Origin: Ampullaceana balthica
Taxonomy: Eukaryota; Mollusca; Gastropoda; Lymnaeidae
DNA: 64,000 nucleotides
Assembly (NCBI GenBank): GCA_944989445.1
Contig: CALYLW010001395.1
Location: forward strand, 124,001 to 188,000
Direction: 5' to 3'
Shown: positions 28,176 to 59,597 of the stretch, piece by piece
How positions within the stretch are numbered: position 1 is the stretch's first letter
Layout of the letters: every line of letters begins with the position of its first letter
Made by a program: the position numbers and the translations under genes
Notes under the pieces: model-generated
The model's database searches: none
Seen by the model: the letters and a program-made list of their open reading frames with translations, nothing else
What the model was told of the DNA's origin: nothing

Positions 28176-28390
28176 GGTCTACAGAAATGGCAATACATCC
28201 TTTTGTTAGTCATACTTCAATAAACGGTGAACCCATTGTGTTCATATGTGGTTCAGAAACGGAAGGCTTACCCCTTTATACCAATATAACATTCATATCT
28301 ATTTGGCGGAGAGTGAGTCGCCCGAATGAGGACGTCATTCAAAGACTGGCTGAATTCAAGCCATTGAGTGCACTTGACGTAAAACTCAAA
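28176..28390 (+). CDS. Receptor exon a: first half of the Ig-like domain
   Basis: Acceptor TGTTCAACAG, donor GTAAGT; enters in phase 1 and leaves in phase 0. It encodes about 71 residues with 'INGEPIVFIC' (B strand and first Ig cysteine), an 'NIT' glycosylation site and 'FISIWRRV', whose Trp suits the Ig C strand. The in-frame ATG at 28187 is probably internal, because the frame is open up to the acceptor. The - strand exon 59404-59597 has the same phases and a similar plan ('EGEPFSLTC'). Confidence 0.75.
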
Positions 28391-31300
28391 GTAAGTAGTA
28401 AAAAGGGAAATTTCCTATACAAAATGCAGACATACTTGTAAAATATTTTTTTCCGAAGAGCAACCACACTTATATTGTGTTCAGTAATTTCATAAAACTG
28501 TTGCATTTAGGTTAGGAATGGTTTAAATTAAATGAATTGATAATTATGTTATAGCGCTGTGAGCCCAGTTGCTTGCTGGGGTACTGCGCTACATAAATTA
28601 TATTATTATTATTATTTGATTATTATATGCGCCTGTGAATATGTATTATTTTTTTAAACCCCTTATAAATCAACAACAACATATTATTAATTTATATCAT
28701 GTTTTATCTCAACCAATTTGGAAAATGCGTTCCATTTAAGCGATTATAACTAAACTAGCGTATCACCCGTCAGAAATGACGGAAGTTTTCAGCTGAAATC
28801 TATTTATTTTGAAAAAATGCACTTATTTAGGGCGCCTACGGCGCCGACCTTTTTCAAAAGCCCAACTAACGTGTCCTTGTTTGATCAATACGAAATATTA
28901 AACTTTCTGAAATGTACACAAAGTATTTTATAATAGGGGTTGTAGGACGCCGTATTGATTTTATAATTAACCATCAACAAATCCTCTTTTTACATTGTTC
29001 CCTTTTCCAAAATTAAAATATGAGCTAAAACAATGACGTCATATAATATTTTTTACAGCGCATCTTTAATTTGCACACCTTTTGATGCATTGGTGCAATA
29101 CTTTGGTGCGCTGCTTTCTAAAATTAGTAGCGTCACGGACAGACACTACAGACGTGACAGAAATTGCAAATTATGTATATTGATTAAATAAGAGCCTATT
29201 TTTAAATTGTCGGTGAGTAATGTTCCTTTGAGTTTGCGCGGCTGCAGATATCTGATGGAAACCACACAACAGTTTACAATTACTTCGCAGCACATTCTGA
29301 TAAAAAAAAGAAATATTGCACAACAAAAATTTTGCTGTGCAACTTTGCACACGAGTTATTTTACTTTGCACACGGACCAACGAATTTTAGATGCAAAATT
29401 GTCGGTGAGCTTTCCATGTAAGCGACCTGCATAAAGAGCAGCCTCTTCATAAGTATTTAGTGTAATCGTATTGTTAATTAACTAGGGCGTTTTATGTCAA
29501 ATTAACTGATTATTCTGTTTTAATTGCGTTTAAATTAGTCAAATATTTCCAAGCAATATAAGATAGCATAAAAAGCTGGTTCTATTTAAAAACGTTTTTT
29601 TTTAAAAAAAAACATTAGAATGATGACTCGTTAAAATGTAAAATTACCTGCAACTCATTGCATTTTTAAAATAATAAATAAATAAATAATTGAGTGTAGA
29701 ACACAAATTTATATTATACAGAATGTATTCATTGCATTTTTTCAAATCGTTCATCTTACCAAAATAAGATTTCTTTTTTTTTAAATTTATTTAATCTCCA
29801 CAGATTGCTGACACTGTCTCAGACTCGGACTGGAGTTTTACATATCAAAATTCTTTGAATTGTACAGAAATTAAGATGTTGATGCCAAATGCTTCATGCA
29901 TTAAAGATGCCGCTCAGTATTTTTGTGACATATCGTATTTATCTAAGTCACGTTCATATTTGAGAAAACGTCTGAATCATGATCTGACTTGTGAAGGTGA
30001 GTAGATGAATAAATAAAGGAGTCTTATAGCAAGTAAGTGGAATGTTGCAACACATTTATAATGAGTCTTATCGCGTTAATTATGTCTTAATTTACTATTA
30101 TACTTTGCTGTTTTTATTTACCATTTACATTACTTTTTTGAAATAGACATCAATGAATTGTTTGAATTGATTTTTTTATAGACTTATTTAAATCACTTTC
30201 AAGAAATGCTTGTTTAAATGTGGTAGAATTTTGCATCACAATTTCGGACCTAATTCCAAATGTCTATTTGAGCTTTAAAAAATGTTACCTTTCCTACCTT
30301 GATAAAAATACAATTTTATATGAACAGAAAAATGTATATGATTGCATGTCACATTTCAAAAAGGGAAACTTTTTAAAATAAACTTAGTTTAGACCCATTT
30401 ACTGTGTCAAAATCAGCTGTTTATAAGAGGGTTTTCCAAGGCCGATGAAAATGCAATCCTTTATATATTAGTTAGACACCATCGGTGACATCTATAGTGC
30501 GAACTTATCTTTGACCTACTTTCTTACATCTAATCAAGTGCAAAGTTGCATATGGAGTCATGAAAAGTAAAGTGTACTTTCCTTTAAAGTAAAGTACACT
30601 GTCAGACAATGATGTCCTAACGGGCAAGTGAAGCAGCTTTCAAAATTTTCTGTAGCCACGGCTAGCACAATGCCCAAACGCCTTTCCTTCCCCAACTGAT
30701 GTCAGGTACCCAATCTGAGCGGCATGGGTGGACTCAGGGATACTCTCTAGCCCTGGTATCAAGACCCTGCCTTCACCTAGACTCGAACCCGCCACTCTCG
30801 GTGATAGAACAAAGCACCCACGGCCATGGTTAAATTTTTTTTGATAATCAGATGGATTACCGGACTTGGACTTGCCCTTCATATCATTTACCCGGCACCT
30901 CAATTTACCCGGCACCTCAATTTACCCGGCACCTCAATTTACCCGGCACCTCAATTTACCCGGCACCTCAATTTACCCGGCACCTCAATTTACCCGGCAC
31001 CTCAATTTACCCGGCACCTCAATTTACCCGGCACCTCAATTTACCCGGCACCTCAATTTACCCGGCACCTCAATTTACCCGGCACCTCAATTTACCCGGC
31101 ACCTCAATTTACCCGGCACCTCAATTTACCCGGCACCTCAATTTACCCGGCACCTCAATTTACCCGGCACCTCAATTTACCCGGCACCTCAATTTACCCG
31201 GCACCTCAATTTACCCGGCACCTCAATTTACCCGGCACCTCAATTTACCCGGCACCTCAATTTACCCGGCACCTCAATTTACCCGGCACCTCAATTTACC

Positions 31301-34300
31301 CGGCACCTCAATTTACCCGGCACCTCAATTTACCCGGCACCTCAATTTACCCGGCACCTCAATTTACCCGGCACCTCAATTTACCCGCACCTCAATTTAC
31401 CCGGCACCTCAATTTACCCGGCACCTCAATTTACCCGGCACCTCAATTTACCCGGCACCTCAATTTACCCGGCACCTCAATTTACCCGGCACCTCAATTT
31501 ACCCGGCACCTCAATTTACCCGGCACCTCAATTTACCCGCAACCTCAATTTACCCGGCACCTCAATTTACCGCAACCTCAATTTACCGCAACCTCAATTT
31601 ACCCGCACAACCTCAATTTACCGCAACCTCAATTTACCGCAACCTCAATTTACCCGGCACCTCAATTTACCGCAACCTCAATTTACCGCAACCTCAATTT
31701 ACCGCAACCTCAATTTACCGCAACCTCAATTTACCGCAACCTCAATTTACCGGCACCTCAATTTACCGGCACCTCAATTTACCCGGCACCTCAATTTACC
31801 CGCAACCTCAATTTACCGCACCTCAATTTACCGCAACCTCAATTTACCGCAACCTCAATTTACCGCAACCTCAATTTACCGCAACCTCAATTTACCGCAA
31901 CCTTCAGTCGTTAGATAAAAATCATTGTAAAAATAACCATTTTGATTATGATGTTTTTTTTACCATCAATGACCCTTGGCTGACTCTTTCCAATCATCGT
32001 AAAATGACCAACGTCGGACTAGAACTTACAAGGTAACACAAACAAAAAATAACACTACCATCTTTCATTGAAACAATGACATCTACTGCGTTTGGACAAC
32101 CTCTATCTGGCATCTAAATTTTGCATCCAATCCAAAAGTTCATTTAGCTGAAACTATAAAAAAGAGTTCTCTTATTCACCCTGATGACATGAAAAACAAG
32201 ACACCACCACTTGAATGTGAAGGATCATCTCAAATCTAAACTGTTCTCCCTGCAGCTGATTACGTACGTCCGCTAACTATATAATCATTCATTCATCTGC
32301 TTATATCGGAGACAACGAAAAGGGATATTTATAGTAGCATCATTTTCTTTTACAATAGCATATGTTTATAATAATTGGAAATGACGATCAACGGTGACAA
32401 ATAACGCCGCACACGCATTATTGTTGTAGATAGTTTAAATCGGGTCTCTTACTAATCTTTTTCATCAGCCCTAAGCACACAACTCCATTTTATTATATCC
32501 AATCATATTCTACAAGTACAAGACCAAAATGTACATTAGAATTAATATATATGATTTTAAAAATAAAATATATATATATTAAACAAACCTAAAACTAAAA
32601 AAACACTAAAAGGCACCGAGAGCCTTTTAATTTAATCATCTCATGGTAAGAGCTCTGTTGGTTTTAGGGACATTTATTTAATCATAAAAATTTAAAAGAT
32701 CCTTTTTTAAAAATTTGATTGTATTTAATACTGTAAATATCTGTACTGAAGGGAGACTGTTTGCTTTTACGATTTTTACATGATTTAGTTTATTGTTGTT
32801 TCTTTTTTTAAAAACTGATGCGTTCTTAAAATTATTCTGGCTTTCGTTGGCTTGTCTTTGTTTCATTACTCTCTTGTTTTTCTCAACTTTTTCATTTATT
32901 GTGAGCTACAGGCGTGAGAGAGGATGGCACAGTCCATACTGATGTTGTTCTGGGAGCGGCCTCCGGTGTACCAGCAACACTGGTTGCCCTTAGTCTTGTA
33001 ATTGTAATATGGAAGCGGTGCAAAAAAGTCCCTCCTCTCGGTGAGTCTCTAAAGGAAATGCTTCATTTGTTTTTCTCAACAATAAATTTTGGATATCTAA
33101 AATAAACTTTGTGATCTGCCCTAAAAAAACAATATCAATATTTTTTTCACATGCACCCAGACGAATATGATGCCTTGACAAGTCATTAAAACATTTTAAT
33201 AAACAGTCCTTAACGTAAATTCAATGAACTTTTATATACAAAATATGCTTAAGGAAATTATATATTAAATACTGAAGATACCTATTTACCCGTTTCCTGA
33301 TTTTCACTGATTCTTAAAATTTATTGAGTAAGAATAGAATATTTAAAAACAAACACATATGTATAGACATTTGATAAAATGACACTTCGTCAATCATTCA
33401 ATGTCATTTGTGTCTGACTCTTTGTTTCAATTTTTAAAAAAAGTTTTCAAGATAATCTTAAGCAGCATTTGTTTTCATATGTTTAGTGTTTAGATGTTTA
33501 GTGTTCAGATGTTGAGTGCCAAAAAGTTTAGTGCTTATATTTTAGTGCTTAAATGTTTGGCGCTTAGATGGTTTGTACTTAGATGGTTTGTGCTTAGGTT
33601 GTTTGTGCTAAGATGGTTTGTGCTAAGATGGTTTGTGATAAGATGGTTTGTGCTAAGATGGTTTGTGCTAAGATGGTTTGTGCTAAGATGGTTTGTGCTA
33701 AGATGGTTTGTGCTAAGATGGTTTGTGCTAAGATGGTTTGTGCTAAGATGGTTTGTGTTAAGATGGTTTGTGCTAAGATGGTTTGTGCTTAGTTGGTTTG
33801 TGCTTAGTAGGTTTGTGCTAAGATGGTTTGTGCTAAGATGGTTTGTGCTAAGATGGTTTGTGCTAAGATGGTTTGTGCTAAGATGGTTTGTGCTTAGTTG
33901 GTTTGTGCTAAGATGGTTTGTGCTAAGATGGTTTGTGTTAAGATGGTTTGTGCTAAGATGGTTTGTGCTAAGATGGTTTGTGCTAAGATTGTTTGTGCTA
34001 AGATGGTTTGTGCTAAGATGGTTTGTGCTAAGATGGTTTGTGCTTAGTTGGTTTGTGCTAAGATGGTTTGTGCTTAGATTGTTTGACCTATTCACAATAT
34101 GATTATAATTAATTTTGTATGCCAGCCTAGGACAATTTAACATCTTTTTTAAATCCTTTATATTAACTCGTGGTGTCTGCGGCCGACCGACCTTGCTTGC
34201 TTGTCGCCAAAACTTTTGATCGATTTTTAACCCACTTGCTCGCAAGATAGCGAGCTGAAATTTTGCAGGCAGTTTCGTACCGATGATAAAAACAATGTAT

Positions 34301-37300
34301 CAAAATTTCAGATCGATCGCATGTACCGTAATTAAATTATTGATTTTTTAGATTATTTTATTTATTCCTATGTATCATGCTATTTTTTTAGATAGAGCGT
34401 CGCGGTGCGTATTATATTGAACAACCTTTCTGTCGCGCAATAAGGTGCGTATTTTATTGACAGCTCTTTTTATAAACATATTCCTGATCGGTGCGCATTA
34501 TATTAAACATGTTTTACGACACAACTGCAATTTTGTATTTCTGGATGGTCTGGCGCTGCGTATTATAATGAACATTCTTTTAATTACTTCTCGTACATAA
34601 AGGATTTATAGTCAAAAACTTGGTTTTTTACGGGTTTTTCTTATTATAAGAATGGCTTACTCTACTGGCTTTCACTTCACTGCTGCTGATAAGTAGCAAT
34701 ATTTCGTTTTTATTAATTATTGTTAAGTAATATCCTTTTAGTTTAGAAGAACATTCGAAATTTCTTGTTAATCGACAGTTTAATGATGCAAAATGCAGAA
34801 ATGTTCTACGTCTGTACATTTGATCGCTATATAAACCATGACATGTATTAGTTAGTGACGTCGTTTTCGTTAACAAGCTTATACACAATGTTTAATGATT
34901 TCTTTTTTTCCAATTTCGACCCCATTCCCTTATAGCAAACTGACACAATCGTCTATCAAAAGGAAAAAAATAATAATAACTTGATCTCTTTGAAATGGAA
35001 TACTATTACAAGTATAAATTGTTTCAACGCTTTCAGTCGTGACATAATCGATGTATAAATATTATATTAGCGCAAAATTTGTAGGAGAATACTATAAAAA
35101 AAACTGAAGACGTTGGATTAACGTAAATTTTGTTTCACTCGTTTTACCATATCTCTTGACTTTAAAATAAAAACAAGAATAATATCAATAATATCATGCT
35201 AGACTTTAATACAAGAAATAATTGACTTATTGCTAGATTTAGTACTCGATTGTCAAACATGTTATTTGCGAACTCCTTCCTAATGTTAGAATGAATTCAA
35301 GGTAAATCAAGGTCCCAAAGACGTGTACCGAAGGGTGGCATAGAGTGTCATAAAGGTTTACTGATCAGGATTTCGATTAGGCAAGCCATGAGCTATATTC
35401 TCGTGCTCCAAAATATGTCAGTGTAAACATGCCAGTTGATTTTGAAAGAATTAGATAGTCTATCAATGCAACAACAACACAAAAATGCTGCGGTGAGACA
35501 ATTAGGTTAAAACGACTTAACTACTGTAAACATTTTCTTTTTTTTATTCTAAAAAAGTAGAAACAGAAATGTTGGAAGTTACATGTGATGAAACTACATT
35601 TTCTAAACTTTTAAAAGCTTGCCTTAATGAAGTTGAGACGCGAGGTTTGTACTTTTAATTAATCCCTTCTTGATTTTTTAAGTTTAATTTGAAAAACTCC
35701 CCAATAAGATAATTGTTCCCCTTTGAAACTTGCTTCTTAACCTACAAAATTTACAGTGTTTCCTCACATATCGTGGTAGTTAGGGACCGAGAGCACCCGC
35801 GATGTTCGAAAATCCGCGAGTTAGGAAAAAAAACTTTATTTTTAGCTTATTTAATTGTTTACAGGATGTTTAACACCATCCCTGTAATTTTTATAACCCA
35901 CCCTTTACTGTATTAATAATAATAGAAATATTGTTACACTTGTTAGGTTGTACTGTAGACTAGTACAGTTCAGTACTGTACATAAATACACCTGTAACAC
36001 TAGATAATTAATCAAGTACGTACATGCAACAAGGTAGTGACTGTGGCAATACATGTATAACACATACATACATGTATATTTGAAAAAAAAATCGATTTCT
36101 AAAAAGAAATTACAAATTAAACAAATTAATAATTATTAAAATAAAATAAAAAAAAATAATTGAAGCAAGTAGGAGAGAGAGAAACTTTACAATACGTAAA
36201 CACGTATAAAAAAATTAAAGAAACTTTACAATACGTACATACGTATTAAAAAATTAAAGAACCTTTACAATACGTACATACATATAAAAAATTAAAAAAC
36301 CTTTACAATATGTACATACCTATAAAAAAATTAAAGAACCTTTACAATACGTACATACGTATAAAAAATTGAATAACCTTTACAATATGTACATACGTAT
36401 AAAAAAATTAAAGAACCTTTACAATATGTACGTATGTATAAAAAATTAAAAAACCTTTTCAATACGTACATAAGTTTGAAAAAAAAGTTTTTATCTGAAA
36501 CAAAATTACAAAATACAGAGGCAAATGAGGCAAAATACTGCGCAATTGATATTATGACGATGAAGGGCGATGATGTGTATCAGCAATGACTGCTTTTATG
36601 ACTCTTCTGAAATCCCACATGGCACAGATAAAGGAAAACACGCGTCAATTACGTAACTGTTCAAAAGTTTCGATGTTCTCATTGGCCATCTCGTTCTCCA
36701 CGAACCAATCACAGAGATCCTTACAAATGACGTCAGTCTCTCTTGCATAGATGCTACACTACGCTTCTTTATGCGGCTAGTGAACCGAGAAACCAAGCGC
36801 ATGTGGGCCATGTACCAGTATTTATTTTTAGTGTATTTTTTAAAATAAAAGTTATTATACTTAAATATTTTTTTGAAAACATTTTGTTACTGTTTTATTC
36901 TTCCTATAAAATAAATAATATTTATAATACACAATTTTTGATATTGTAATTATTTTTAATACCCGTATTTAATTTTCTAATATTCGATTATCACGGTTTT
37001 TATGGATTAAGGTGGAAATCCGCGTTATTAATTTATCGAAAAAAACGTGAAGTAGCGAATCCGTGATAATCAAACAGCGAAGCAGCGAGGGAACACTGTA
37101 CTTTTTATTGAATGACTTTTGTGGGTGGGGGGAAAACATGCCGTTCTAAACGGAATATTTCTTGTTATTTGAATACGTAACATTGTTTAAAATTAAACTT
37201 AGCCTACATGTTGTATTATGGAGAGAAGTGTTATTGGTATAAATAATATGTATATTGTTTAAATATGTTTTTCTAACTTTTTATGAAACAGGCCTTCAAG

Positions 37301-40300
37301 TGAATGGTATATATAGACTGAGTGGGAACCAGAAGGAATCTTATCAATTAAGAGAGGCCATAATGAAAGGTTGTTATTTTTAAAAGCACAATTAATCTAA
37401 CACATTCTCGCTAAACTCCTGGTTGTGTTTCCTACATCTTCCTTCAAAGACAAGAATATCACCTTCTTTCATTGAAACAAACAGCATATTGATACTACTA
37501 TTTCAAAATTTAGTCAATAGCCCTGTGCCAAATATAGGGTAAAAAAGGAGAGTCTTTGGATCTTTAAATGATACCCTAAATATTAATCAAAATCGCAGCC
37601 TAGACAGTAAAATAGTTGTTCGTTTTTTTAAAAATTTAAGTGAAGATTAATATAACAGACTGAAAATTACATTTTGCAGATGGACTGTGAGCGAATATAA
37701 CAGTTTGCTAAATCTGGAATTAAATTTACAGTTTCAGCTATTTTGTTTTTGAAACGTAGCACGCATAATATTTTTAACATTTTAATTATATTTTAATTAA
37801 AATACCAGATTTATTATTGGAGAATTTTTTTTTAAAATGACAATAGTAATACCGTCAGTTAAATCACTAAACCTTGAAACACTAGAGCGGATAAAAGTAG
37901 AAGTGCAAGGTAGAAATAAAACATATGAGTATTGTAGAATATTGAGTATTACGGAATGTGAACACCTGAAATAACTATGTAAAATAACGGGGTCACTTCC
38001 GGAAGTTATGTAAATAATAAATATTGCGTTCAATGTGAACTTGAACGACTTGCTTATGATTGTATTCTAATTGTCTTCATGTTTGACCATGACCATAATT
38101 AACGAACAAATACTGAAACCATTCAGTACACCACATTGGCGACGAGGATGAACATCATGGGATGTCAAACATTTGTCACGGTGATGACAATTAATAAAGA
38201 AAGATAAGTAAATTAGACAAGACGAGAAAAACGCCACATTCACCTTGTTTGGCATTGGCATTGGCGAATAGGATTGGCGGACGTCATTATTATATTTATA
38301 TGTCACGTTGATGACAATAATAAAGAAGTATACATACAAGAATGTCTAAACTTAAACAATTTGATGAGAGCCTCGAGCCATTTTCAAACTACAAAGAAAG
38401 GCTCGACGCACACTTCATGGCGAACGACACAGCTCCCGTGAAGCAAACTGCAATTCTACTCTCATCAATAGGACCCAAAATGTATAATTTATTAAGGTCC
38501 TTGACCACACCACAACTACCATCCACAAAATCATATGAAGAATTGTACAAAGTTCTTCAAGACCACATGTCCCCTGCTCCTCTGGAGATTGTGGAACGTT
38601 TTAAATTCCACAAAAGAATTCAACAGGAAGGGGAATCAGTGAGCACATTCCTTGCAGAAATCAGAAAGTTATCTGAATACTGCAACTTTAAGGAAAATCT
38701 TGAAGAGTCTTTAAGGGACAAGTTTGTGGTGGGCATCAGAGATGACACAATTCAGAAAAGGCTTTTTACAAGAAATAAACTTATCTCTGGATAAAGCAGT
38801 TGAATTGACCTTGGCTATGGGGCAAGCCACAAATGATGTCCTCTCGATACATAAAGGTTCAAGTGAGGGAGAACAAGTGTCTTTCGTAAATAAAAGAAAA
38901 TTATCCAAGAGTGTAGCATACCCTCCTTGCCTTTCTTGTGGTAAAACTAACCACCAAAGGTCTCAGTGTTATTTCAAGGACGCCATATGCAGAAGCTGTT
39001 CAAAGAAAGGACACATTAAGGCTATCTGCAAAAATAGTCAACGAGCAAGTACTAAAAGTAAAGGAGGAAAGATTCACCACATTAAATGGAATGAAGAATC
39101 AGATGAAGATTCCGACACCATTTTTGAGATTTATAATGTTCACAACGTAGAACATACAAAGAAATTTTGGGTTTACCCCATTATAAATAATATTAAAGTA
39201 AAAAATCTTTTTTTAAGAAGGACACGCTTTTATTCACATATAGAAAGTGCACTAAAAAGAAGAAAATAAACGTTTTCTATGATAACAGGTGAAATCCGTG
39301 AACATATCCACTGCACATACAAGCGTGGGGCGCTGAAATTTTGAGATCTCTCAGATTTACACAACTCATTTCTGTTTGCAATTATTCTTTTGCATATAGT
39401 TAAGTATTTCTAATTAATATGATAGTAGCATGTATATGATCAAAGTTGTGAAACTTTAAATGTTTATTAATATTCATACTCATAAAAATTTGTATCTATG
39501 TTTCGCAGCCTTGCACATGATAGAGAGTTGTGAAGAGCGCCCCACGCTTTTATGTGCAGTGGATAGGTTCACGGGTTTCACCTGTTATCATAGAAAACGT
39601 TTATTTTCTTCTTTTTAGTGCACTTTCTATATGTGAATAAAAGCGTGTCCTTTTTGAAAAAAGATTTTTTTTAAAGTATTTTATTTTCTACTTTTTAGTC
39701 TCAAATTTTTTTTATTGATTTTTCGACCTTATCAATTAAATTTAATTAGTTATGCCCCCTTTTCATTACAGATTTATGTATAATAAAAAAAAACATTTTC
39801 CCTAACTGAAAATTGAACCTCGTACCCCCATGTCGGCAATCGATCACGCTTATATTTCGGGCAGCAAGAATTGATGTTGATAGTACTTTTTAAAGTTATA
39901 ATAAAAACTCTTTAAAATTCACGTCTGAAGCCCACACATCTTTTTTACCACTTTTTTTATACCAAACACCTCATAAGCGCCCGCCCAACGTTTTATACAA
40001 CGATGATATGTCCACGTGGTGAACTCATGGATGTCAACAAAGCAGACGGTACCGTTGCTTATATATAGACTATAGATAAACTAAAAATACAATAATTTCA
40101 ATACGGTACATTTGATCGATCCGAAATTTTGATACAATGCATTGTCATCCAAGATCTATCTGTGGTAAAATTTTGAGATCTCTAGGACCATCAGAAGTGG
40201 TTTAATTTTACGTTACAAGATTTGACGGATACAACATACAAACATTTTGAGTTAAATAAAAGCTTGTAAAAATGGAACTCGATACTGGCTGCCCGATATC

Positions 40301-43300
40301 TGTGACGACAAAAGCAGACTATCACTCTATTTTTTTAAGAAGCCACCAGTAACCAGTCCAGTGAGAATGAAGTTGAAAACCTACACGGGAGAGGTAATCA
40401 CTCATGTAGGAACAACAACAGAAAAAGTTTCCATAAACAACAACACTAAATACCTTACTTTAGTGATTGTGAAGAATGGCGCACATCCACTCCTAGGCAG
40501 AGAATGGATTCATAAATTAAAAATAAGTAATAAAATGTAAAAAAATCTTTTTTTAAAAAGGACACGCTTTTATTTAGAAACATTTACAGACTGAAACGCG
40601 CTGATCTCCTCTGGCCTTGATTTAAACACGTGAATTTGGTAATTGAGGGCTGGAGTGAAACCAGTGAGCCGTGGAGGTCAACTCTAGCAGACGACTATAC
40701 ATTCTAAATAGTGATAAATAGAGATAAACTAAAAATTGATTAATTTAATTACAGTACATTCGATCGATCTGAAATTTTAATACAATGCATTGTCATCCAA
40801 GATATATCTGTGGTAAAATTTTGAGATCTCTAGGACCATCAGAAATGGTTTAATTTTACGTTACAAGATTTGTAGGAAGGATGGATGGATACAATATACA
40901 AACATTGTGACTTAAATAAAAGCGTGTAATAATAAAATTGCCTCAGTCGATTAACTATACCTCAGTCTCAAGTGACAAGGAGAAGGTAGAACTCGACCGA
41001 ATTCTGAAAACACACTCAAGTGTATTCAAAGGTGGAATTGGAAAAATTAAAGATATTAAAGCATCATTTCATTTGAAAAATGCATGCAAACCAAAATTTA
41101 TTAAGGCTAGACCTGTACCATACTCCTTAAAAGAAAAGGTTGAAGCCGAATTAAAGAAACTAGAGAAGGAAGGAATTATCACCAAGGTTACAAATAGTGA
41201 ATGGGCTACACCTATCGTTCAAGATATTAAATCTTCTGGTGATGTTCGCATATGTGGAGATTATAAAACCACCTTAAATCCAGCTCTAATTTCAGAATCA
41301 TATACACTTCCAAGAATTGAAGATATTTTCACAAATCTGGGTAGAGGACAGAAATTCACTAAAATCGATCTCACTCAAGCCTATCTACAGTGTGAACTAG
41401 ATGAGGAATCTAAAAAGCTCACTACAATTAACACCCATCTAGGACTTTATGAATATAACAGATTGGTTTTTGGAATTACATCAAGTCCTGCTATATTTCA
41501 ACGTAGCATGGATACAGTGCTGTCAGGATTAGAAAATGTCCAATGTAATCAGGGATGATATAATCATCACAGGGGAAACCAATGAATCACACTTAAAGAA
41601 CATTGACATTGTTCTAAATAGATTGGAAAAATTTGGCTTAAGAGCAAATTTACAAAAAGTGTAATTTCTTCCAAGATGAAATACTCTTCTGTGGCCATAA
41701 AATCAATAAAGATGGACTACATAAAACTGTTGACAAAGTGGAAGCAATCATAAATGCTCCCAGACCAACAAATGTAAAGCAATTAAGATCATTTCTTGGA
41801 ATGTTAAATATTATATAATTTCAATAACATTGCTACTGTTATCAATCCACTGAATGAACTTCTTCAAAAGAATATAAAATGGCAGTGGTCTAATAAACAA
41901 GAGAAAGCATTTCTAAAGGCTAAAGAACTCATAGCATCTGAAAAAGTTTTAATGCGCTATGACCCTAAATTACCATTGAGACTTGCCTGTGATGCAAGCC
42001 CATATGGACTTGGAGCAGTCGTATCACATATTACAGATGAAGGAAAGGAAAGGCCCATAGCTTATGCATCAAGATCCTTAAACAAGGCTGAAAAGAACAC
42101 TCTCAAATTGATAAAGAATCTTTGGCAATCATTTATGCAGTAAAGAAATTCTGTTCATATGTATGTTCTAGGAAATTCACTCTGTAACTGATCATAAGCC
42201 TTTGCAGTATATATTCGGACCAGCGAAAGGAATTCCACAAATGATAGCTTCAAGACTGCAACGTTATGCTGTATTCCTATCTGGATTAGATTATACAATT
42301 GAGTATAGATCAACAGAGAAACATAGTAACGCTGATTGTCTATCAAGATTACCATTAGCAGACACAGTTAAGGAAATGATAGACATTGATGATCTTTACT
42401 ACACAGAAATCCTTGACTACGCTCCAATAAGTGCTACAAGTATCAGGAAAGAGACAGCTAGAGACACAATATTATCTCAGATCTCTAGATACATAAATGA
42501 ATCTTCTTGGCCAGAAAATGCTAATACTAATAATGATGGATTAAATTCATTTCTAACAAGAAAGCATGAATTATCAATGCAACAAGGGTGCATAATGTGG
42601 GGAAACAGAGTAGTTATTCCTAAGAAACTACAAACCCAAGCATTAAATCTGCTCCATGAAGGACATCTTGGAATAATGAAAATGAAATCTACTGCAAGAC
42701 AAACCATGTGGTGGCCTAATATGGACAAAGACATAGAAGGAATCACAAAGAAATGTACAGGTTGAGCAAAACAATTATCAAATCCAGCACAAGCCACACT
42801 TCATCCGTGGGAATGGCCTCACAAACCATGGCAAAGAGTGCATGTGGACTATGCAGGACCATTTCTCAAGACTATGTTTTTAGTGGTGATAGATGCACAC
42901 ACTAAATGGGCTGAAATAATACCGACAAGTTCTACTACATCATCTACAACGATCGATATACATAGAACAATGTTTTGCAAGGTTTGGACTACCCAATCAA
43001 ATTGTTAGTGACAATGGACCACAATTTGTATCTGAAGAATTCAACAGATTTGTCACTAACAATGGTATTAAACATATTACCAGCTCACCATATAAACCTT
43101 CCACAAATGGACTTGCTGAAAGATTAGTTCAAAGCTTCAAACATGCAATGAAAGCTTCTGCAAGTGACTCTGGAAGTATTGTCACAAAACTAGCAAGATT
43201 CCTACTTGCATATCGTAATGCTCAGCACAACACAACGGGCGAATCACCTGCACAATTGATGTTTTGTAGACAACTTCGCACCAGAACTTCAATGGTCAAA

Positions 43301-46300
43301 CCAAGTGTTGACGAAACAGTACTTAAAGCAACAAGCTGAGCAACATAGATTCCACAAAGGACAATTCCGTGAATTCAGTCCAGGACAAACCGTCCTCATA
43401 AGGGACTACAGGAATCTAGACAAATGGATCAGTGGAACAATTGTAGAGAGATCTGGTCCGCTCTCCTACATTGTTGAAACATATCCAGGGATAACATGTC
43501 GCAGACATGTAGATCAGATAAGATCATCATCGGCACACATCCCTCCAGCCATTCAAAGGGAAGAAAGACCGAAATGGTTCCCTCCTCTTCAGGTCGCAGA
43601 ACCAGCCTCTACAAGTAAAGATAGCGTGCCGACTGTCATCTGTTCCTGACACCTCAGCAGTCAAGGAACCAACAACTCAAACTACATCAGAAGCGACAGA
43701 TACTTCTGAAAATGTTTTAAGAAGATCGAAGAGACAATCTACGCCCACTAAAAGACTAATAAGTGAACTTTAAGTGTGCATGTGTTTGAGTTGAATACAC
43801 ATATTGTACATTTCTTTTGGAGGGGAGATGGTGTGATATATTGAGTATTACGGAATGTGAACACCGTAAATAACTATGTAAAATAAGGGGCTCACTTCCG
43901 GCAGTAATGTAAAATAATAGATATGACGTTCAATGTGAACTTCAACGACTTGCTTATGATTGTATTCTAATTGTCTTCCATGTTTGACCATGACCATAAT
44001 TAACTAACAAATACTGAAACCATTCAGTACACCACATTGTATTTTAATCATTGTATTTATCAATTAAGAGAGACCATAATGAAAGGTTGTTATTTAAAAA
44101 AAAATTAATCTTGCACATTCTCGCTAAACTCCTGGTTGTGTTTCCTACATCTTCCTTCAAAGACAAGAATATCACCTTCATTACTTCTTTCATTGAAATA
44201 AACAGTATATTGATACTACTATTTCAACATTTAGTCAAAGCCCTGAGCCAAATATAGGTTAAAAAGGAGAGTCTTTGGATCTTTAAATGAAACCCTAAAT
44301 ATTAATCAAAATCGCAGCCTTGACAGTAAAATAGTTGTTCCTTTTTTTAAATTTAAGTGAAGATTAATATAACAGACTGAAAATTACATTTTGCAGATGG
44401 ACTGTGAGCGAATATAACAGTTTGCTAAATCTGGAATTAAATTTACAGTTTCAGCTATTTTGTTTTTGAAACATAGCACGCAAATTGTTTTTAACATTTT
44501 AATTATATTTTAATTAAAATACCAGATTTATTACTGGAGAAAAATTTAAAAAATGACAATAGTAATACCGTCAGTTAAATCACTAAATCTTGAAACACTA
44601 GAGCGGATAAAAGTAGAAGTGCAAGGTAGAAATAATACATATGACTATTAATTATAAATTCGAAATATACCTCAAAGATAATCTAATACAACCCTCACAT
44701 AAACATATGAATGAAATCACTTGTCTTATTCGGAATGAAGGAAAAAACACATACAAATTCTCTTTCGTCCGGTCTCGAATTCGGACGCGAAATGCGTTGC
44801 CTGATCAAACAAGGGAAACCCAACACTCTATCAACATTTAAAAATCTACTAAAAATGCAACACACGAGATAAACGATGGATAGGCGTAGGACAAAATAAT
44901 CATTTGTATAGAAAGAGCGTCTGTGATAGATAAGATAAGATATTTTAGAAAAAGAAACTTATCATACGTTTTAAATAACTTCTTTTTTAAATAAAAAAAT
45001 CTATAAAATCTAGTACACTTTTTATTTCATGCAAATTTGTTAGTGCCACATTCTTAGTGCCACTTTCTTTGTGCCACTTTCTTAGTGCCGCTTTCTTAGT
45101 GCCATTTTCTCAGTAGCACTTTCTTTAAATTAAAAAAAAATTCTGAAGCTTTTTCAAGAGAGTAAATAATTAATGGAAACATATGGTTCATAAATTTACG
45201 TGCCTCCTCTTTACTGCCTATCCAGATATTAAAACAACAAAAATAACATAATTTACCCACATATATTTTACTTGAACTTTTCAATAAAGCCAAATATTAC
45301 CATTAAAAACGTAATTAATAAAAATCAAATTTAAAATTTAAAGCGTTACTGACTTGAAATAACCTCAACATCAAACAAGAGTTGTTTAATATCTGATAGA
45401 TTAACATAACGCCCATTCAGCTCATTTTTTTATGTTTACAAAAGATTTTGAGAAAGGGCTTGGCGAGCTGAAAAAAGCCAACATCTTCATAATAACAGAC
45501 ATCATCAAGAGACAACTGCGTGACGTGCAAAACTCCCTCATCCCATATAATGTTTCGAGCCAGTTATTGGAAGCAGTAGGTAATTTGTTTTTTTAAAAAT
45601 TAGTTGGTTTTTTGTGTAAGAAAATGTGTTAATATATATTTTTGTTATCAATCAATTAATTAAACGATAAAAATATCTGCTTGGTGGAGTATTAAAAATG
45701 CATTCGTTTTTGAGAGGGTAACTTGGTTAGGTAACTTTCATATGAAACATTGTCAGTTAGAAAAAAAAAGAATCAAAAGTTCTTTATCCAATAATAGCGA
45801 AAATACCTCAAAATGGTATAACCATTGCTGACCTATACAACTAGGAAATTTTGGCTGATTTATTAAAATTAAGAAATTAAATTAAATAAAAAATAAAATA
45901 TATAATTAAACTGGCTAATGCTGTGACTAATACCCTGTTTATATGTTATACATTTACTAATTTAAAAGCCTGGTTGCAGTCTCACCCCCATTATTATTAT
46001 TTTTTTTTGTGAAAGATCAGAAAAAAAAATTAAACGAAGCTAATTTTTTTTTAAATTTGCATTAATATCCTTATTATCTGTATTAATTTTCCCCTATTTA
46101 GCAGCTGATAACCCCGCTGAGGTTGTAAGGGGACACGTAGAGTCTGTACTGTCCGGCCTCACAGATTTCAATGCTGAGATACTCTACCTATTCCTCAAAC
46201 ATCTGAGAAAGTAAGAGAAACAGAAGCGTAAAATTTTTTTGTTGTTTTTCAAGAAGTAGAATAAAGTGTTTATGTTTATTTCACATACAAAAAAATAATA

Positions 46301-48967: not shown

Positions 48968-49008
<41 letters not shown>

Positions 49009-49631
49009 GGCTGTGGAAATTAACTATTAATTAATCGATTAATATTTAAAAATTTTAATCGATAAGAATTAATTTGATCTATTGAAATTTAAGAAAATAA
49101 TTCGAATATAATTTTTTAACCAATTTATTATTTATTTTATAATTTCTGTTACTAACATAGTTTTCCGTCGTATTACTATTTTCTATTTAGACGTGCAAAC
49201 GTATACAAACAGTTTTTTCTTCCTTATTTCTTGCATAGAAGAACGAATTTGCTGTGTTACGTCACAAAATTTGAGAGCCATGGAATTACCGCTACTTAAC
49301 GGGATCGATATATGCGTTATATAAAATATAATTAATCGAAATTAATCAATTAATTTTTTCCTGATTAATGGAACAAAAGAAATTAATCAGTACCAGCCCT
49401 AAAATATTTATATATGTGTTTATATATATATATTTGTATATTTTTAGAGTGGTGGAGTACAGCTCCGTAAACCTAATGAATGCCCACAACATCGCCGTTG
49501 TTCTAGCGCCAACAATTTTCGCATCAACTACACGGGAAGATGTTGGAGATATATCCCTGCTAATGGCAGCAATAAAAGACGAAGAAATCAAGAAAGCCAG
49601 TTTGATTGAATATATGATCAACTGTTTATGA
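28176..49631 (+). CDS. Ig-transmembrane-RhoGAP receptor gene (eight exons seen, 5' incomplete)
   Basis: Joining eight exons with GT/AG borders and matching phases gives about 376 residues: one Ig-like domain, one membrane helix and one RhoGAP domain ending at TGA 49629-49631. Exons are 28176-28390, 29804-29996, 32912-33040, 35558-35644, 37292-37369, 45445-45579, 46102-46210 and 49448-49631. The Ig domain has the B-strand Cys ('VFIC') and the F-strand 'DAAQYFC' motif. The helix is followed by the basic 'WKRCKK'. The RhoGAP part keeps 'GIYRLSG' with the arginine finger, 'KRQLRD' and 'NIAVVLAPTIF' with the conserved Asn. RhoGAP domains speed GTP hydrolysis by Rho-family GTPases, so the inferred job is to couple an extracellular ligand to Rho signalling at the plasma membrane. 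No signal peptide or first exon was found. The introns are full of mobile DNA. The gene model has not been tested against transcripts. Confidence 0.75.
28555..28620. repeat. SINE-tail-like sequence ending in (ATT)n
   Basis: AGCGCTGTGAGCCCA...GGTACTGCGCTACATAAATT followed by ATTATTATT resembles the 3' tail of short interspersed elements in invertebrate genomes. Only the tail is recognisable. Confidence 0.4.
28755..29185. mobile_element. Foldback MITE copy, intronic
   Basis: Carries GGGCGCCTACGGCGCCGACC, AAAAGCCCAACTAACGTGTC, ACGTCATATAAT and TTGGTGCGCTGCTTTCTAAA followed by TTAGTAGCGTCACGGACAGA. Only the right arm is well preserved. It lies between the two Ig half-domain exons. Confidence 0.6.
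29205..29405 (+). repeat. Dispersed repeat, copy 3 (intronic)
   Basis: Contains TGTTCCTTTGAGTTTGCGCG, GATATCTGATGG, CAACAGTTTACAAT and GCTGTGCAACTTTGCACACG, in common with 2738-2945 and 27472-27625. Short open frames on both strands here are incidental. Confidence 0.4.
29804..29996 (+). CDS. Receptor exon b: second half of the Ig-like domain
   Basis: Acceptor TTAATCTCCACAG, donor GTGAGT; phase 0 in, phase 1 out. It encodes about 64 residues with 'SDWSFTYQNSLNCTEIKML', glycosylation sites NCT and NAS, and 'KDAAQYFCDISY', the Asp-x-Ala-x-Tyr-x-Cys signature of the Ig F strand. The last residues are basic ('SRSYLRKRLNHD') and end in 'LTCE'. The phases match those of the - strand exon 57402-57600, which carries 'NDSGSYYCIIY'. 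Confidence 0.75.
29997..30599. other. Intron sequence, no recognised feature
   Basis: Follows the GTGAGT donor. One in-frame-looking stretch near 30180-30375 ('LFKSLSRNACLNVVEFCITI' read on the + strand) is open for about 65 codons. It could be an extra exon of the ectodomain, since it follows a pyrimidine-rich TTTTTTATAG, but no donor was evident. Confidence 0.35.
30600..30829 (-). repeat. tRNA-derived SINE-like unit, intronic
   Basis: Read on the - strand from 30829, GGCCGTGGGTGCTTTGTTC is followed by a clear B-box GGTTCGAGTCT and then by TCAGTTGGGG-GAAGG near 30695. This is the layout of a tRNA-derived SINE head and core. The overlapping 91-residue - strand frame is incidental. Confidence 0.5.
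30886..31908 (+). repeat. 17-bp minisatellite changing to 16-bp units, intronic
   Basis: About 60 copies of ACCCGGCACCTCAATTT. Units are nearly identical to about 31540. They then change to a 16-bp form, ACCGCAACCTCAATTT, mixed with 17-bp units and some hybrid units to 31908. All three + frames stay open because the unit has no stop and 17 is not a multiple of three; the 350-390-residue frames are artefacts. Confidence 0.95.
31909..32911. other. Intron sequence, no recognised feature
   Basis: AT-rich. No gene or repeat identified. It ends in a good acceptor TTATTGTGAGCTACAG before the membrane exon. Confidence 0.4.
32912..33040 (+). CDS. Receptor exon c: transmembrane helix
   Basis: Phase 1 in, phase 1 out (donor GTGAGT). 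It encodes 'GVREDGTVHTDVVLG' (short juxtamembrane stalk), then the hydrophobic 'ASGVPATLVALSLVIVIW' and the stop-transfer run 'KRCKKVPPL'. The order and charge place the Ig domain outside the cell and the following exons in the cytoplasm. Length is 43 codons. A symmetrical phase-1 exon like this is common for domains added by exon shuffling. Confidence 0.75.
33041..33545. other. Intron sequence, no recognised feature
   Basis: AT-rich. Towards its end, degenerate copies of the TTTAGTG(C/T)T motif lead into the minisatellite. Confidence 0.4.
33546..34085 (+). repeat. 15-bp minisatellite, intronic
   Basis: About 36 copies of GGTTTGTGCTAAGAT with scattered variants (GCTTAGTT, GTTAAGAT, GATAAGAT). 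The period is a multiple of three, so long frames appear on both strands: Trp-Phe-Val-Leu-Arg on + and Asn-His-Leu-Ser-Thr on -. There is no start or splice context, so I regard them as non-coding. Confidence 0.93.
34140..34640. repeat. GATCGATC-family fragment, intronic
   Basis: Contains CGAGCTGAAATTTTGCAGGC, ATCAAAATTTCAGATCGATC, GTCGCGGTGCGTATTATATT and TCTCGTACATAAAGGATTTA, matching blocks in the 23.0-24.4 kb cluster, in mixed order. Truncated. Confidence 0.5.
34641..35557. other. Intron sequence, no recognised feature
   Basis: AT-rich. It ends in the acceptor CTTTTTTTTATTCTAAAAAAG for the next exon. Confidence 0.4.
35558..35644 (+). CDS. Receptor exon d: start of the RhoGAP domain
   Basis: Phase 1 in, phase 1 out; 29 codons, donor GTTTGT (weak). 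It encodes 'VETEMLEVTCDETTFSKLL' and 'KACLNEVETRG'. This corresponds to the first helices of RhoGAP domains, where the family has a '...P.vl..c...lE.rGl' pattern just before the arginine-finger loop. Only about 15 residues separate it from the membrane helix. Confidence 0.7.
35754..37099. mobile_element. Pogo/Tigger-like non-autonomous element, intronic
   Basis: Inverted ends CAGTGTTTCCTCACATAT and, at the right, GCAGCGAGGGAACACTG are flanked by TA on both sides (35752-35753, 37100-37101). Further in, TCGTGGTAGTTAGGGACCGA and the right-hand AATCCGTGATAATC continue the pairing imperfectly. It is 1346 bp long and encodes no recognisable transposase. It holds the tandem repeat at 36175-36480. 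Confidence 0.65.
36175..36480 (+). repeat. Tandem repeat of about 40 bp, seven to eight copies
   Basis: Units read AAAGAACCTTTACAATACGT then ACATACGTATAAAAAATT, with alternating TACGTACATACGTA and TATGTACATACGTA. Each unit contains a TACGTA-type palindrome. It lies inside the pogo-like element. Confidence 0.8.
37292..37369 (+). CDS. Receptor exon e: RhoGAP arginine-finger exon
   Basis: Acceptor TTTTTATGAAACAG, donor GTTGTT; phase 1 in and out; 26 codons. It encodes 'GLQVNGIYRLSGNQKESYQL' followed by 'REAIMK'. The 'GIYRLSG' loop matches the 'GIFRxSG' arginine-finger motif of RhoGAPs, and 'LREAI' matches the helix that follows. The catalytic Arg is present. Confidence 0.8.
37340..37928 (+). 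repeat. Direct duplication, left copy (exon e end plus intron)
   Basis: The segment from TTATCAATTAAGAGAGGCCA, inside exon e, to GTAGAAATAAAACATATGA matches 44056-44645 with only scattered differences. The Ty3/Gypsy element lies between the copies. Confidence 0.9.
37933..38137 (+). repeat. 5' long terminal repeat of the Ty3/Gypsy element
   Basis: About 205 bp, TGTAGAATATTGAGTATTAC to TACACCACATT, matching 43832-44038 with about a dozen differences. It is followed by GGCGACGAGGATGAAC, the position of a tRNA primer-binding site. GTAT precedes it (37929-37932) and also follows the 3' LTR, a likely 4-bp target duplication. Confidence 0.85.
38342..39203 (+). pseudogene. Gag-like region of the Ty3/Gypsy element
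   Basis: Starts with ATG at 38342 ('MSKLKQFDES'). A capsid-like region follows ('EELYKVLQDHMSP', 'KRIQQEGESVSTFLAEIRKL'), then two CCHC zinc knuckles of spacing C-x2-C-x4-H-x4-C ('CLSCGKTNHQRSQC', 'CRSCSKKGHIKAIC') at about 38934-39046. A frameshift near 38780 separates capsid from nucleocapsid. The frame is then cut after 'NNIKVK' by an inserted element at about 39204. Confidence 0.85.
39204..40264. mobile_element. Composite insertion in the Ty3/Gypsy protease region
   Basis: About 1.06 kb separates 'IKVK' from the protease 'MELDTG'. GTAAAA is present on both sides (39198-39203, 40265-40270) and may be a target duplication. The left third (39204-39680) is a foldback with arms of about 125 bp around AAGGACACGCTTTTATTCAC. 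The right half (39884-40264) is a reversed copy of the element at 21690. Non-coding. Confidence 0.7.
40272..40538 (+). pseudogene. Aspartic protease remnant of the Ty3/Gypsy element
   Basis: 'MELDTGCPISVTTKADY' carries the catalytic Asp-Thr-Gly. After a frameshift near 40330, 'VRMKLKTYTGEVITHVGT' and 'HPLLGREWI' match the flap and C-terminal 'LLGRxWL' parts of retroelement proteases. It ends at the second insertion. Confidence 0.75.
40539..40932. mobile_element. Second ACACGC-ended insertion in the Ty3/Gypsy element
   Basis: About 0.4 kb, AAATCTTTTTTTAAAAAGGA-CACGCTTTTATTTA at the left and TTAAATAAAAGCGTGTAA at the right. The ends include the inverted pair ACACGCTTTTATTTA/TAAATAAAAGCGTGT. 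The interior carries GTTCGATCGATC-like and GATCTCTAGGACCATC blocks and a GGATGGATGGATAC tract. It is shorter than the 21690 copy and lacks its central region. Confidence 0.75.
40938..41650 (+). pseudogene. Reverse transcriptase of the Ty3/Gypsy element
   Basis: Contains 'KARPVPYSLKEKVEAEL', 'GIITKVTNSEWATPIV', 'GDVRICGDYK' and 'TKIDLTQAYLQ', then 'LVFGITSSPAIFQRSMD', the ordered RT motifs of Ty3/Gypsy. The Tyr/Phe-x-Asp-Asp box survives only as 'DDIIITGE' after a frameshift at about 41545 that removes the preceding residues. Confidence 0.85.
41651..42370 (+). pseudogene. RT connection and RNase H region of the Ty3/Gypsy element
   Basis: Contains 'LRSFLGMLN' (41785-41812), 'RLACDASPYGLGAVVSH' with the RNase H Asp (41981-42030), 'RPIAYASRSLN' and, after frameshifts, 'VTDHKPLQYIFG' and 'STEKHSNADCLSRLPL'. 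Breaks near 41660, 41812 and 42140. Confidence 0.8.
42371..43340 (+). pseudogene. Integrase of the Ty3/Gypsy element
   Basis: The HHCC zinc domain is partly seen ('HEGHLGIMKMKSTARQTMWW', 'KKCTG'). The catalytic core follows: 'VDYAGPF' and 'VVIDAHTKWAE' around 42842-42910, 'IVSDNGPQFVSEEFNRFV' near 43000-43055, and 'STNGLAERLVQSFKHAM' with the Glu near 43100-43150. Stops and frameshifts occur near 42764 and 42950. Confidence 0.85.
43341..43775 (+). pseudogene. Integrase C-terminal tail of the Ty3/Gypsy element
   Basis: Contains 'HKGQFREFSPGQTVLIRDY' and 'GTIVERSGPLSYIVE', which match the 'GPY/F' C-terminal module of many Ty3/Gypsy integrases, then 'RRHVDQIRSSS'. A frameshift at about 43640 is followed by 'RSKRQSTPTKRL' before the polypurine tract. 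Confidence 0.75.
43832..44038 (+). repeat. 3' long terminal repeat of the Ty3/Gypsy element
   Basis: TGTGATATATTGAGTATTAC to TACACCACATT; the partner is 37933-38137. It is followed by GTAT (44039-44042), the same four bases that precede the 5' LTR. Confidence 0.85.
44056..44645 (+). repeat. Direct duplication, right copy (partial exon e plus intron)
   Basis: TTATCAATTAAGAGAGACCA onward matches 37340-37928. It contains only the last nine or so codons of exon e with its donor (AAAGGTTGTT) and has no acceptor just upstream, so it should not be a functional exon. Confidence 0.9.
44660..44960 (+). mobile_element. LINE 3'-end remnant, copy 2 (intronic)
   Basis: A frame at 44641-44841 ends with 'NTYKFSFVRSRIRTRNALPD', recalling the C-terminal 'YKFSFFPRTIRxWNxLP' of LINE reverse transcriptases. 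The downstream sequence TATCAACATTTAAAAATCTA is shared with 3590-3620. Truncated. Confidence 0.5.
45046..45122 (+). repeat. 14-bp tandem repeat, about six copies
   Basis: Imperfect copies of TTAGTGCCACTTTC in the intron before exon f. Confidence 0.8.
45445..45579 (+). CDS. Receptor exon f: RhoGAP middle
   Basis: Acceptor TTATGTTTACAAAAG, donor GTAATT; phase 1 in and out; 45 codons. It encodes 'DFEKGLGELKKANIFIITD' then 'IIKRQLRDVQNSLIPYNV'. The latter aligns with the RhoGAP 'lLKxyLRELPEPLIPy' motif. The Lys and Arg that contact the GTPase are kept, but the usual Leu-Pro-Glu-Pro is replaced by Val-Gln-Asn-Ser. Confidence 0.8.
45580..46101. other. Intron sequence, no recognised feature
   Basis: AT-rich. 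It ends in the acceptor TTTTCCCCTATTTAG. Confidence 0.4.
46102..46210 (+). CDS. Receptor exon g: RhoGAP middle helices
   Basis: Phase 1 in, phase 2 out, donor GTAAGA. It encodes 'AADNPAEVVRGHVESVLSGL' then 'TDFNAEILYLFLKHLRK'. The family has 'LP..n...L..Ll.hL..v' in this position, and 'NAEILYLFLKHLRKV' fits this helix well. Confidence 0.8.
46364..48185. mobile_element. piggyBac-like TTAA-flanked element with nested repeats, intronic
   Basis: TTAA stands on both sides (46360-46363, 48186-48189). The left end GGGGCGTCCTTAAAGTACGT and the right end, whose reverse complement is GAGCCGTTCAGTAAGTACGT, are imperfect inverted repeats followed by CAC. TTAA target sites are the hallmark of piggyBac. 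No transposase is visible. The inside is filled with several copies of the foldback MITE family (46600-47300 and 47310-48060). Confidence 0.65.
46600..48060. mobile_element. Cluster of foldback MITE copies inside the piggyBac-like element
   Basis: At least three partial copies carry AATTTTGGAAAAGGTGACAA, GGCTTTTGAAAAAAGG-TTGGCGCCGTAGG, TTGGTGCGCTGCTTTCTAAA and GGCGCCCTACAACCCC. The stretch 47525-47580 has CGGACCCTGCGAGGCAACAA, the end shared with 54225-54250. Short frames on both strands here are repeat-derived and not genes. Confidence 0.65.
48190..48960. other. Intron sequence, no recognised feature
   Basis: AT-rich. Open frames at 48281-48529 and 48822-49034 have no recognisable motif. 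A (TA)n run lies at 48973-49004. Confidence 0.4.
49005..49402. mobile_element. Small TAGGGCTG-ended inverted-repeat element, intronic
   Basis: Begins TTAGGGCTGTGGAAATTAAC and ends TACCAGCCCTAA. Both sides carry ATTAATCGATTAAT-like sequence in opposite orientation (CGATTAATATT and AATTAATCAATTAATT). About 0.4 kb and non-coding. It sits 45 bp upstream of the last receptor exon. The class is probably hAT, judged from end type only. Confidence 0.6.
49448..49631 (+). CDS. Receptor exon h: RhoGAP C-terminus and stop
   Basis: Acceptor TTTGTATATTTTTAG, phase 2 in. It encodes 'VVEYSSVNLMNAHNIAVVLA' then 'PTIFASTT' and ends 'KASLIEYMINCL' before TGA. 'NLMNAHNIAVVLAPTIF' is the diagnostic RhoGAP 'NxMtxxNLAxvfaPtLl' helix, with the second Asn that helps to stabilise the switch regions. 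The protein ends soon after the domain. Confidence 0.85.
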
Positions 49632-57401: not shown

Positions 57402-57600
57402 TCGTGGTGACATGAAGGACTTCAGAGCGGTTCAACAGTATGGGTGGACTATAATCAAAATAGATAATGCAATAATAAGATCCGCTGTCGTTCATCACGG
57501 CTTGCTTCGATTTAGATTTGAGTTGGACTTTCCACCTGTTGTACAATTGTAAATGTGGTCCTTTGGTTTCCATCGTCCATCTTTCTTTTAGTGGTTGATA
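57402..57600 (-). CDS. Second Ig-like gene: second half of an Ig domain
   Basis: On the - strand, acceptor GTTTCCTTTAAG, then 66 codons and donor GTATGC; phase 0 in, phase 1 out. It encodes 'LQLYNRWKVQLKSKSKQAVM' and 'NDSGSYYCIIYFDYSPP', a textbook Asp-x-Gly-x-Tyr-x-Cys F strand, then 'NRSEVLHVTT' with an NRS glycosylation site. The same phases and position of the F strand occur in the + strand exon 29804-29996, which points to a paralogue. No downstream transmembrane exon is visible on this strand. Confidence 0.7.
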
Positions 57601-57602
57601 CT

Positions 57603-59403: not shown

Positions 59404-59597
59404 CATCTCGCCGAGATCCAGATCTGAAATCAGTGGATGGAAATACGATACTAAAGCACAGTACGGCTCAGGGCTTTCAAATAACATTTTACACAACTGA
59501 AGCCCAAATATCGACGCCAGATACCCAGGTATGTCTTCCAGACGTCTAGTGTCACATGTCAAGCTGAATGGCTCTCCTTCTGTGACTGTTAACTTGT
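59404..59597 (-). CDS. Second Ig-like gene: first half of an Ig domain
   Basis: On the - strand, acceptor CTTGAGATTCTAG, donor GTAGGG; phase 1 in, phase 0 out. It encodes 'DKLTVTEGEPFSLTCDTR' (Ig A' and B strands with the first Cys) and then 'FESPEPYCALVSYFHPL' up to 'DLDLGEM'. Both phases and the 'GEP...C' start match the + strand exon 28176-28390. The upstream signal-peptide exon was not found; the LINE at 60 kb lies on that side. It could be a functional paralogue or a fragment. Confidence 0.6.

Follow-up and report, generated by a model that had tools for sequence, protein, structure and literature searches.

A compact gene of the snail Ampullaceana balthica that appears to encode a single-pass receptor with a RhoGAP domain

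Can an extracellular domain, a membrane helix and a RhoGAP domain be carried by one small snail gene? The question is raised by eight exons on the plus strand of a 64,000-nucleotide stretch of Ampullaceana balthica contig CALYLW010001395.1 (C1395; positions 124,001 to 188,000, the whole stretch analysed, here called the window). An earlier note, made from the letters alone, had read these exons as an Ig-like domain, a single transmembrane (TM) segment and a RhoGAP domain, in an order for which it knew of no described family. The gene, here gene A, appears to be genuine and to encode a type of receptor not yet described, with a distant sister gene of the same layout in the same genome.

Exons of gene A and its copies in the genome

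All eight exons (E1-E8) with their matching phases were located (Table 1). Spliced in silico, every exon is bordered by AG and GT, the phases are compatible (incoming 1, 0, 1, 1, 1, 1, 1 and 2), and the joined frame runs through 374 codons with no stop before the TGA ending at 49631. The acceptor of E7 may instead lie at 46102, giving an exon of 109 bases, the length of the exon on C271. Donor scores are weak for E4 (0.7 bits) and E5 (-1.4 bits), at which the paralog C271a, described below, has GTATGT and GTAAAT. With E4-E8 as training set, the codon usage of E1-E3 gave no usable signal (-0.06, -0.31 and 0.15 bits per codon). Across the window Rfam gave no match at gathering score; NCBIfam gave none either.

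Table 1. Features of the window (positions counted from its first nucleotide)
Feature	Position	Strand	Description
Candidate signal-peptide exon	19051..19087	+	MLTGMLLFASLC; phase-1 donor GTGAGT
E1	28176..28390	+	Ectodomain, first half, Ig-like, with C24; phase 1 in, 0 out; C271 counterpart 56% identical
E2	29804..29996	+	Ectodomain, second half, DAAQYFC motif; phase 0 in, 1 out
E3	32912..33040	+	Transmembrane helix GAASGVPATLVALSLVIVI, mean hydropathy 2.09; basic stop-transfer KRCKK; phase 1/1
E4	35558..35644	+	Opening part of RhoGAP; phase 1/1, shared at its borders with the C796 exon (L023)
E5	37292..37369	+	Arginine-finger exon, GIYRLSG; phase 1/1; weak donor GTTGTT
LTR retroelement, E5-E6 intron	37930..44040	+	LTR pair 92% identical; absent from C1937
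E6	45445..45579	+	RhoGAP; phase 1/1
E7	46105..46210	+	RhoGAP; phase 1 in, 2 out
E8	49448..49631	+	End of RhoGAP, NAHNIAVVLAPTIF; stop TGA
Gene B, second Ig-like exon	57403..57612	-	...NDSGSYYCIIYFDY...
Gene B, first Ig-like exon	59401..59604	-	LDKLTVTEGEPFSLTC...; weak Pfam Ig_2 match, E 0.05, below cut-off

A diverged paralog, C271a, lies on another contig and matches gene A exon by exon: order, strand and phases agree for all eight, with GT-AG borders throughout, the same stop position and 374 codons; given this eight-exon counterpart, the structure of gene A cannot be put down to chance. The two genes are 55% identical over 371 aligned codons (dS 1.22, which is near saturation, dN 0.315, dN/dS 0.26). 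Identity to the C271 counterpart is 53% within the tblastn match and 49% across the exon for E2, and 55% and 49% for E3. By part, dN/dS is 0.29 for the Ig-like region, 0.22 for the TM region and 0.25 for the RhoGAP region; values for single exons are noisy (0.57 for E4, saturated for E5), and weight is put on the dN/dS totals alone. Purifying selection acts on all parts of gene A.

A search of the genome with the RhoGAP query gave 19 matches at E ≤ 0.1, among them 15 in five loci of gene A type: the window, C1937, two on C271 (C271a and C271b) and a lone copy of E8, named E8', on C1395. The other four, with E of 0.025-0.098, lie on C86, C1370, C399 and C1524. The ectodomain/TM query gave at least nine matches at E ≤ 1, confined to three loci (the window, C1937 and C271); genome match counts from searches of this type are lower bounds. 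At each of these three loci the ectodomain and TM exons stand directly 5' of the RhoGAP exons, in order and on a single strand, and the whole C271 protein as query (29 matches at E ≤ 1) brought no additional ectodomain locus. The C271 paralog and this co-occurrence at three of three loci make separate transcripts unlikely, and we place the Ig/TM and RhoGAP exons in one gene, as the earlier note did.

The two other loci are read as partial copies. C271b (C271:556153-560120, minus strand) has E6, E7 and E8, 71-89% identical to C271a. E8' (L022:4371-4553, equal to C1395:192353-192550, outside the window) is E8 alone, with a phase-2 acceptor and an in-frame stop; it is 57-60% identical to E8, with a dN/dS of 0.17 over 58 codons. 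Ectodomain or TM exons were detected at neither locus. The repeat ends hemming in E8' look Helitron-like in the printed sequence. In a large non-redundant protein collection no relative was found at E ≤ 0.001 (none scored from 3980 and from 187 candidates).

The C1937 copy may be the other haplotype of the window gene. Introns included, its DNA is 98% identical to window positions 28987-34085, 94% to 26583-28995 and 97% to 34641-35703. There are no base differences in E2, E3 and E4, and six in E1, where three residues change; in tblastn matches E5 and E8 show no differences (the first residue of E8 being a split codon), E6 shows two residues and E7 one. All eight exons of C1937 match without a stop. 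The flanks of the LTR retroelement in the window gene (37341-37929 and 44057-44649) are 95% identical to each other with gaps set aside, a duplication that spans about 590 bases and takes in the final 29 bases of E5. C1937 has this flank once and lacks the element; the insertion is thus polymorphic or copy-specific, and came with the duplication.

Could the same pattern come from two adjacent genes that were duplicated together, an Ig-TM gene with E3 as its last exon and a soluble RhoGAP gene that starts in E4 or ahead of it? Neighbouring genes can be copied as a block, in both copies read-through of the E3 donor adds a short tail before a stop is reached, the window copy has an in-frame ATG at the fifth codon of E4, and C271b and E8' are RhoGAP-only partial copies. 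We nonetheless think this quite improbable. The end of E3 and the start of E4 are both in phase 1 in both diverged copies, E4 of C271a has no ATG, and the homologous exon of C796 (below) is preceded by an acceptor. What the E3-E4 intervals of gene A and C271a have in common is sequence around the donor, a 0.5-kb dispersed repeat and matches at chance level, so that beyond the repeat nothing is conserved above chance; simple-repeat frames aside, the interval has no open frame longer than 59 codons. This non-conservation and the missing ATG make a separate RhoGAP start exon unlikely, and at none of the three loci do ectodomain/TM exons occur without RhoGAP exons. Decay of gene A into a pseudogene would fit the weak E4 and E5 donors, the LTR element in the intron with its duplication of the end of E5, and the partial copies nearby. 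It is harder to square with eight exons that are free of stops and frameshifts in two diverged genes, with a dN/dS of 0.26 over 371 codons, or with the intact match of all eight exons in C1937, which has no LTR element; of the alternatives weighed here we hold decay to be the most remote.

The RhoGAP domain and its pedigree

The Pfam family named in the earlier note, RhoGAP (PF00620), matches E4-E8 of gene A at 5.1e-31 (108 bits against a cut-off of 24.5), spanning profile positions 3-146 of 148, and the C271a protein at 1.6e-30. The arginine finger GIYRLSG and the conserved Asn (NAHNIAVVLAPT), both pointed out earlier, were found in the window copy, which also has IIKRQLRD with the conserved Lys and Arg. 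The arginine finger and these Lys, Arg and Asn residues are the catalytic positions of RhoGAP domains. A stretch LPEPL, which we take to be usual, is missing, and LRDVQNSLIP stands there. C271a keeps the arginine finger and has S for the LRD arginine and S for the conserved Asn; ARHGAP15 likewise has S at the conserved-Asn place in the PDB alignment. C1937 has Y for the Asp of LRD.

By sequence, the nearest solved relatives are ARHGAP15 (2.5e-19) and ARHGAP12 (3.3e-19). The genome has an ARHGAP12/15/27-like gene on C796, which over the stretch compared is 53% identical to the ARHGAP15 and ARHGAP12 PDB chains. Compared with E4-E8, its introns lie at the same places and in the same phases: before E4 and at E4/E5, E5/E6 and E6/E7 (phase 1), and at E7/E8 (phase 2). 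Its E4-homologous exon is four codons longer and has an acceptor in front, and its RhoGAP exons joined at those borders are open to the end. Gene A thus resembles the ARHGAP9/12/15/27 branch both in RhoGAP sequence and in five intron positions and phases, as seen in the C796 member. The identity of its GAP domain is 29-32% to ARHGAP15/12 and just 29% to C796, so the split is old.

Not every RhoGAP locus that was read has the full set of introns: L001, L015 and L018 have no intron at E4/E5, and L002 and L006 have an apparent intron at E4/E5 and none at E5/E6; L019 has gaps near both. A RhoGAP family search of the genome listed 56 places, none of them the short exons of the window. Twelve ten-kb segments around some of the family hits, C796 among them, were tried and carry RhoGAP exons just distantly like those of gene A. 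Six RhoGAP matches, also distantly like gene A, lie within 70 kb at C540:11439-79573, possibly as a tandem array.

Membrane helix, 5' end and ectodomain

A single membrane helix with a basic stop-transfer had been proposed, and the hydropathy profile agrees: the eight best 19-residue windows all fall in one segment, the highest at 2.09, and the segment is conserved in C271a. When both strands were scanned for phase-1/1 exons with a membrane helix and a basic tail, E3 was the sole result (listed with an acceptor 6 bases upstream); laxer cut-offs gave one further candidate, at position 50944 of the window. The linker from the helix to the beginning of the Pfam RhoGAP match is about 27 residues long, which would place the GAP near prenylated GTPases.

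The frame of gene A opens at an acceptor, and a 5' exon is therefore needed. A signal-peptide scan gave nothing upstream at the stricter cut-off and one candidate at the relaxed one, 19051-19087, the only one of its kind on the plus strand of 1-28175. The relaxed scan also gave ten candidates on the whole minus strand and one on the remaining plus strand; with ten on the minus strand, an exon of this type can arise by chance. The peptide is identical in all 13 residues in C1937, in a stretch of DNA that matches at 92% identity. On C271 the 2.7 kb ahead of E1 contain no counterpart, and a laxer scan of that segment gave one unlike, poor candidate. Possibly 19051-19087 is the signal-peptide exon of gene A.

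How far is the ectodomain Ig-like? The part of this claim that rested on residues stands: the cysteine pair C24/C112 and DAAQYFC are present. The fold itself is not confirmed by any profile, and the ectodomain has no Pfam family at E ≤ 10. C24, C103, C112 and C134 are conserved between the paralogs, together with the last-strand motif (DAAQYFC / DIAEYFC), which we compared with the D-x-A/G-x-Y-x-C-like hallmark of Ig domains. A profile of the two paralogous ectodomains gave three PDB matches at E ≤ 5, one of them an antibody chain and none a convincing Ig; the best, a V-ATPase subunit at 0.0044, is probably due to chance. A mixed profile of gene A, the neighbouring gene B (Table 1) and B', two of whose three rows are B-type, gave 37 PDB matches at E ≤ 1, the best at 7e-4 (whole chain); 36 belong to the Ig superfamily (IgSF), and many of these are near-identical Fc receptors. 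An hhalign comparison of the gene A ectodomain with gene B was not significant (probability 0.6%). Pairwise A/B scores lie above shuffles by z 2.4-3.4, values that 7-53 of 2000 shuffles reach. The ectodomain consists of two exons, parted by a phase-0 intron and bordered by phase-1 introns, and gene B, read by eye, is laid out likewise. From these sequence comparisons, the ectodomain is probably a small, disulfide-bonded, diverged V-like Ig domain. Custom HMMs for snail IgSF domains are described in PMC7588048, so that a missing Pfam hit weighs little.

The general architecture could be right and the ectodomain still be another small cysteine-bonded binding domain, not an Ig fold. The Pfam result, the lone antibody among the three matches of the paralog profile and the hhalign probability would all suit such a domain. 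Conservation of C24/C112, the Y-F-C motif, the two-exon layout with phases 1-0-1 as in gene B, the IgSF share of the mixed-profile matches (36 of 37) and the A/B z scores argue for the Ig fold, and we regard another domain as unlikely, if the least unlikely of the alternatives. Somewhat further down we would rank a pseudo-GAP receptor, in which the RhoGAP fold binds GTP-loaded Rho proteins without hydrolysis and so senses or sequesters them. RhoGAP folds can be non-catalytic, as in p85; here LPEPL is gone, and LRD is altered in two copies, with S for its arginine in C271a and Y for its Asp in C1937. Both paralogs have the arginine finger, however, and the window copy keeps the Lys, the LRD Arg and the Asn.

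Proposed origin and action, and the neighbouring gene B

We think it likely that gene A is one compact single-pass ectodomain-TM-RhoGAP receptor gene, with a putative origin by shuffling and a putative contact-GAP mechanism. It would have arisen by exon shuffling at phase-1 introns, when a RhoGAP module of ARHGAP9/12/15/27 type, with a phase-1 intron at its start, came to lie behind an ectodomain-TM module. The ARHGAP9/12/15/27 branch has a preference for Rac and PH-dependent membrane targeting, and the receptor body would replace the lipid-binding domain of the soluble protein in this targeting. From parts and an order that are read directly in the genome, we would predict a protein that is exposed at the surface, binds a ligand, clusters and acts as a GAP on Rac-type GTPases. 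The ectodomain may meet a ligand on a neighbouring cell or particle, whereupon receptors would cluster. The clustered GAP, held at the inner membrane face of the contact, would then hydrolyse the GTP of a Rac-type GTPase there (possibly of Cdc42 or Rho), and protrusion or phagocytosis would be damped locally, the contact thus signalling inhibition or 'do not advance'. Adaptors, kinases or recruited GAPs usually stand between a receptor and Rho GTPases; a direct fusion would be a minimal switch from contact to cytoskeleton. Gene A would also be a clean case of phase-1 exon shuffling yielding a new receptor class, and it offers a ready-made chimera for studying ligand control of GAP activity.

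Members of the ARHGAP9/12/15/27 branch are soluble proteins with PH and other modules (WW/SH3) before the GAP. In gene A a membrane helix and an ectodomain stand in the place of these modules, and Pfam on the spliced chain found RhoGAP alone. Plexins, large sema-domain single-pass receptors for semaphorins whose split GAP acts on Rap/Ras, are alike in principle, with a GAP fold in the same chain as a single-pass receptor. Gene A is not a member, there being no sema/PSI/IPT ectodomain among the Pfam matches to its 374 residues. Its ectodomain, possibly a V-like Ig fold missed by standard Pfam models, invites comparison with invertebrate IgSF proteins, among them those of snail FREP type. PMC7588048 describes FREPs as secreted proteins joining Ig to fibrinogen domains; RhoGAP is the sole Pfam domain in gene A. 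PTC2 of Biomphalaria glabrata, a polymorphic single-pass transmembrane cluster, likewise combines small single-pass proteins in a gene cluster; according to PMC7494358 its genes have no known domains besides the TM segment, and the main text of that paper has no occurrence of 'Rho' or 'GTPase'. A literature search on transmembrane or receptor RhoGAPs, with most subscription papers beyond its reach, found no such receptor described among the matches listed, in line with the earlier note, and no family of Ig-TM-RhoGAP order is among them.

Gene B, whose Pfam Ig matches are weak, gave 20 matches at E ≤ 1 as query, of which 12 fall in six loci: on C1395 in the window and at 217-219 kb, on C1937 at 210-214 kb and 240-242 kb, and on C271 at 542-543 kb and 585 kb. 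The other eight (E 0.004-0.64) lie on C122, C1409, C410, C2580 and C51. At all five RhoGAP-type loci a B copy lies beyond the 3' end, on the opposite strand and convergent, at distances of about 8, 25, 8, 16.5 and 12.7 kb; for one of the six B loci (C1937, 242 kb) no partner of type A was found. The two exons of B, compared with those of B', give dN/dS values of 0.14 and 0.20. Joint duplication accounts for the A-B pairing at least in part. A more speculative and doubtful reading is that A and B form a linked recognition system, a co-inherited pair of receptor and ligand or co-receptor. Once a matching partner on an adjacent cell or a particle is bound, the receptor would shut down Rac-type GTPases directly with its own tail. 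If true, the pair would be a one-protein path from self/non-self recognition to the cytoskeleton, without adaptor or kinase, and the co-inherited gene B makes the search for a ligand directly testable.

Very long simple and minisatellite arrays occupy 1036-2322, 19219-20230, 30885-31905 and 33560-34085 of the window, three of them within introns of gene A.
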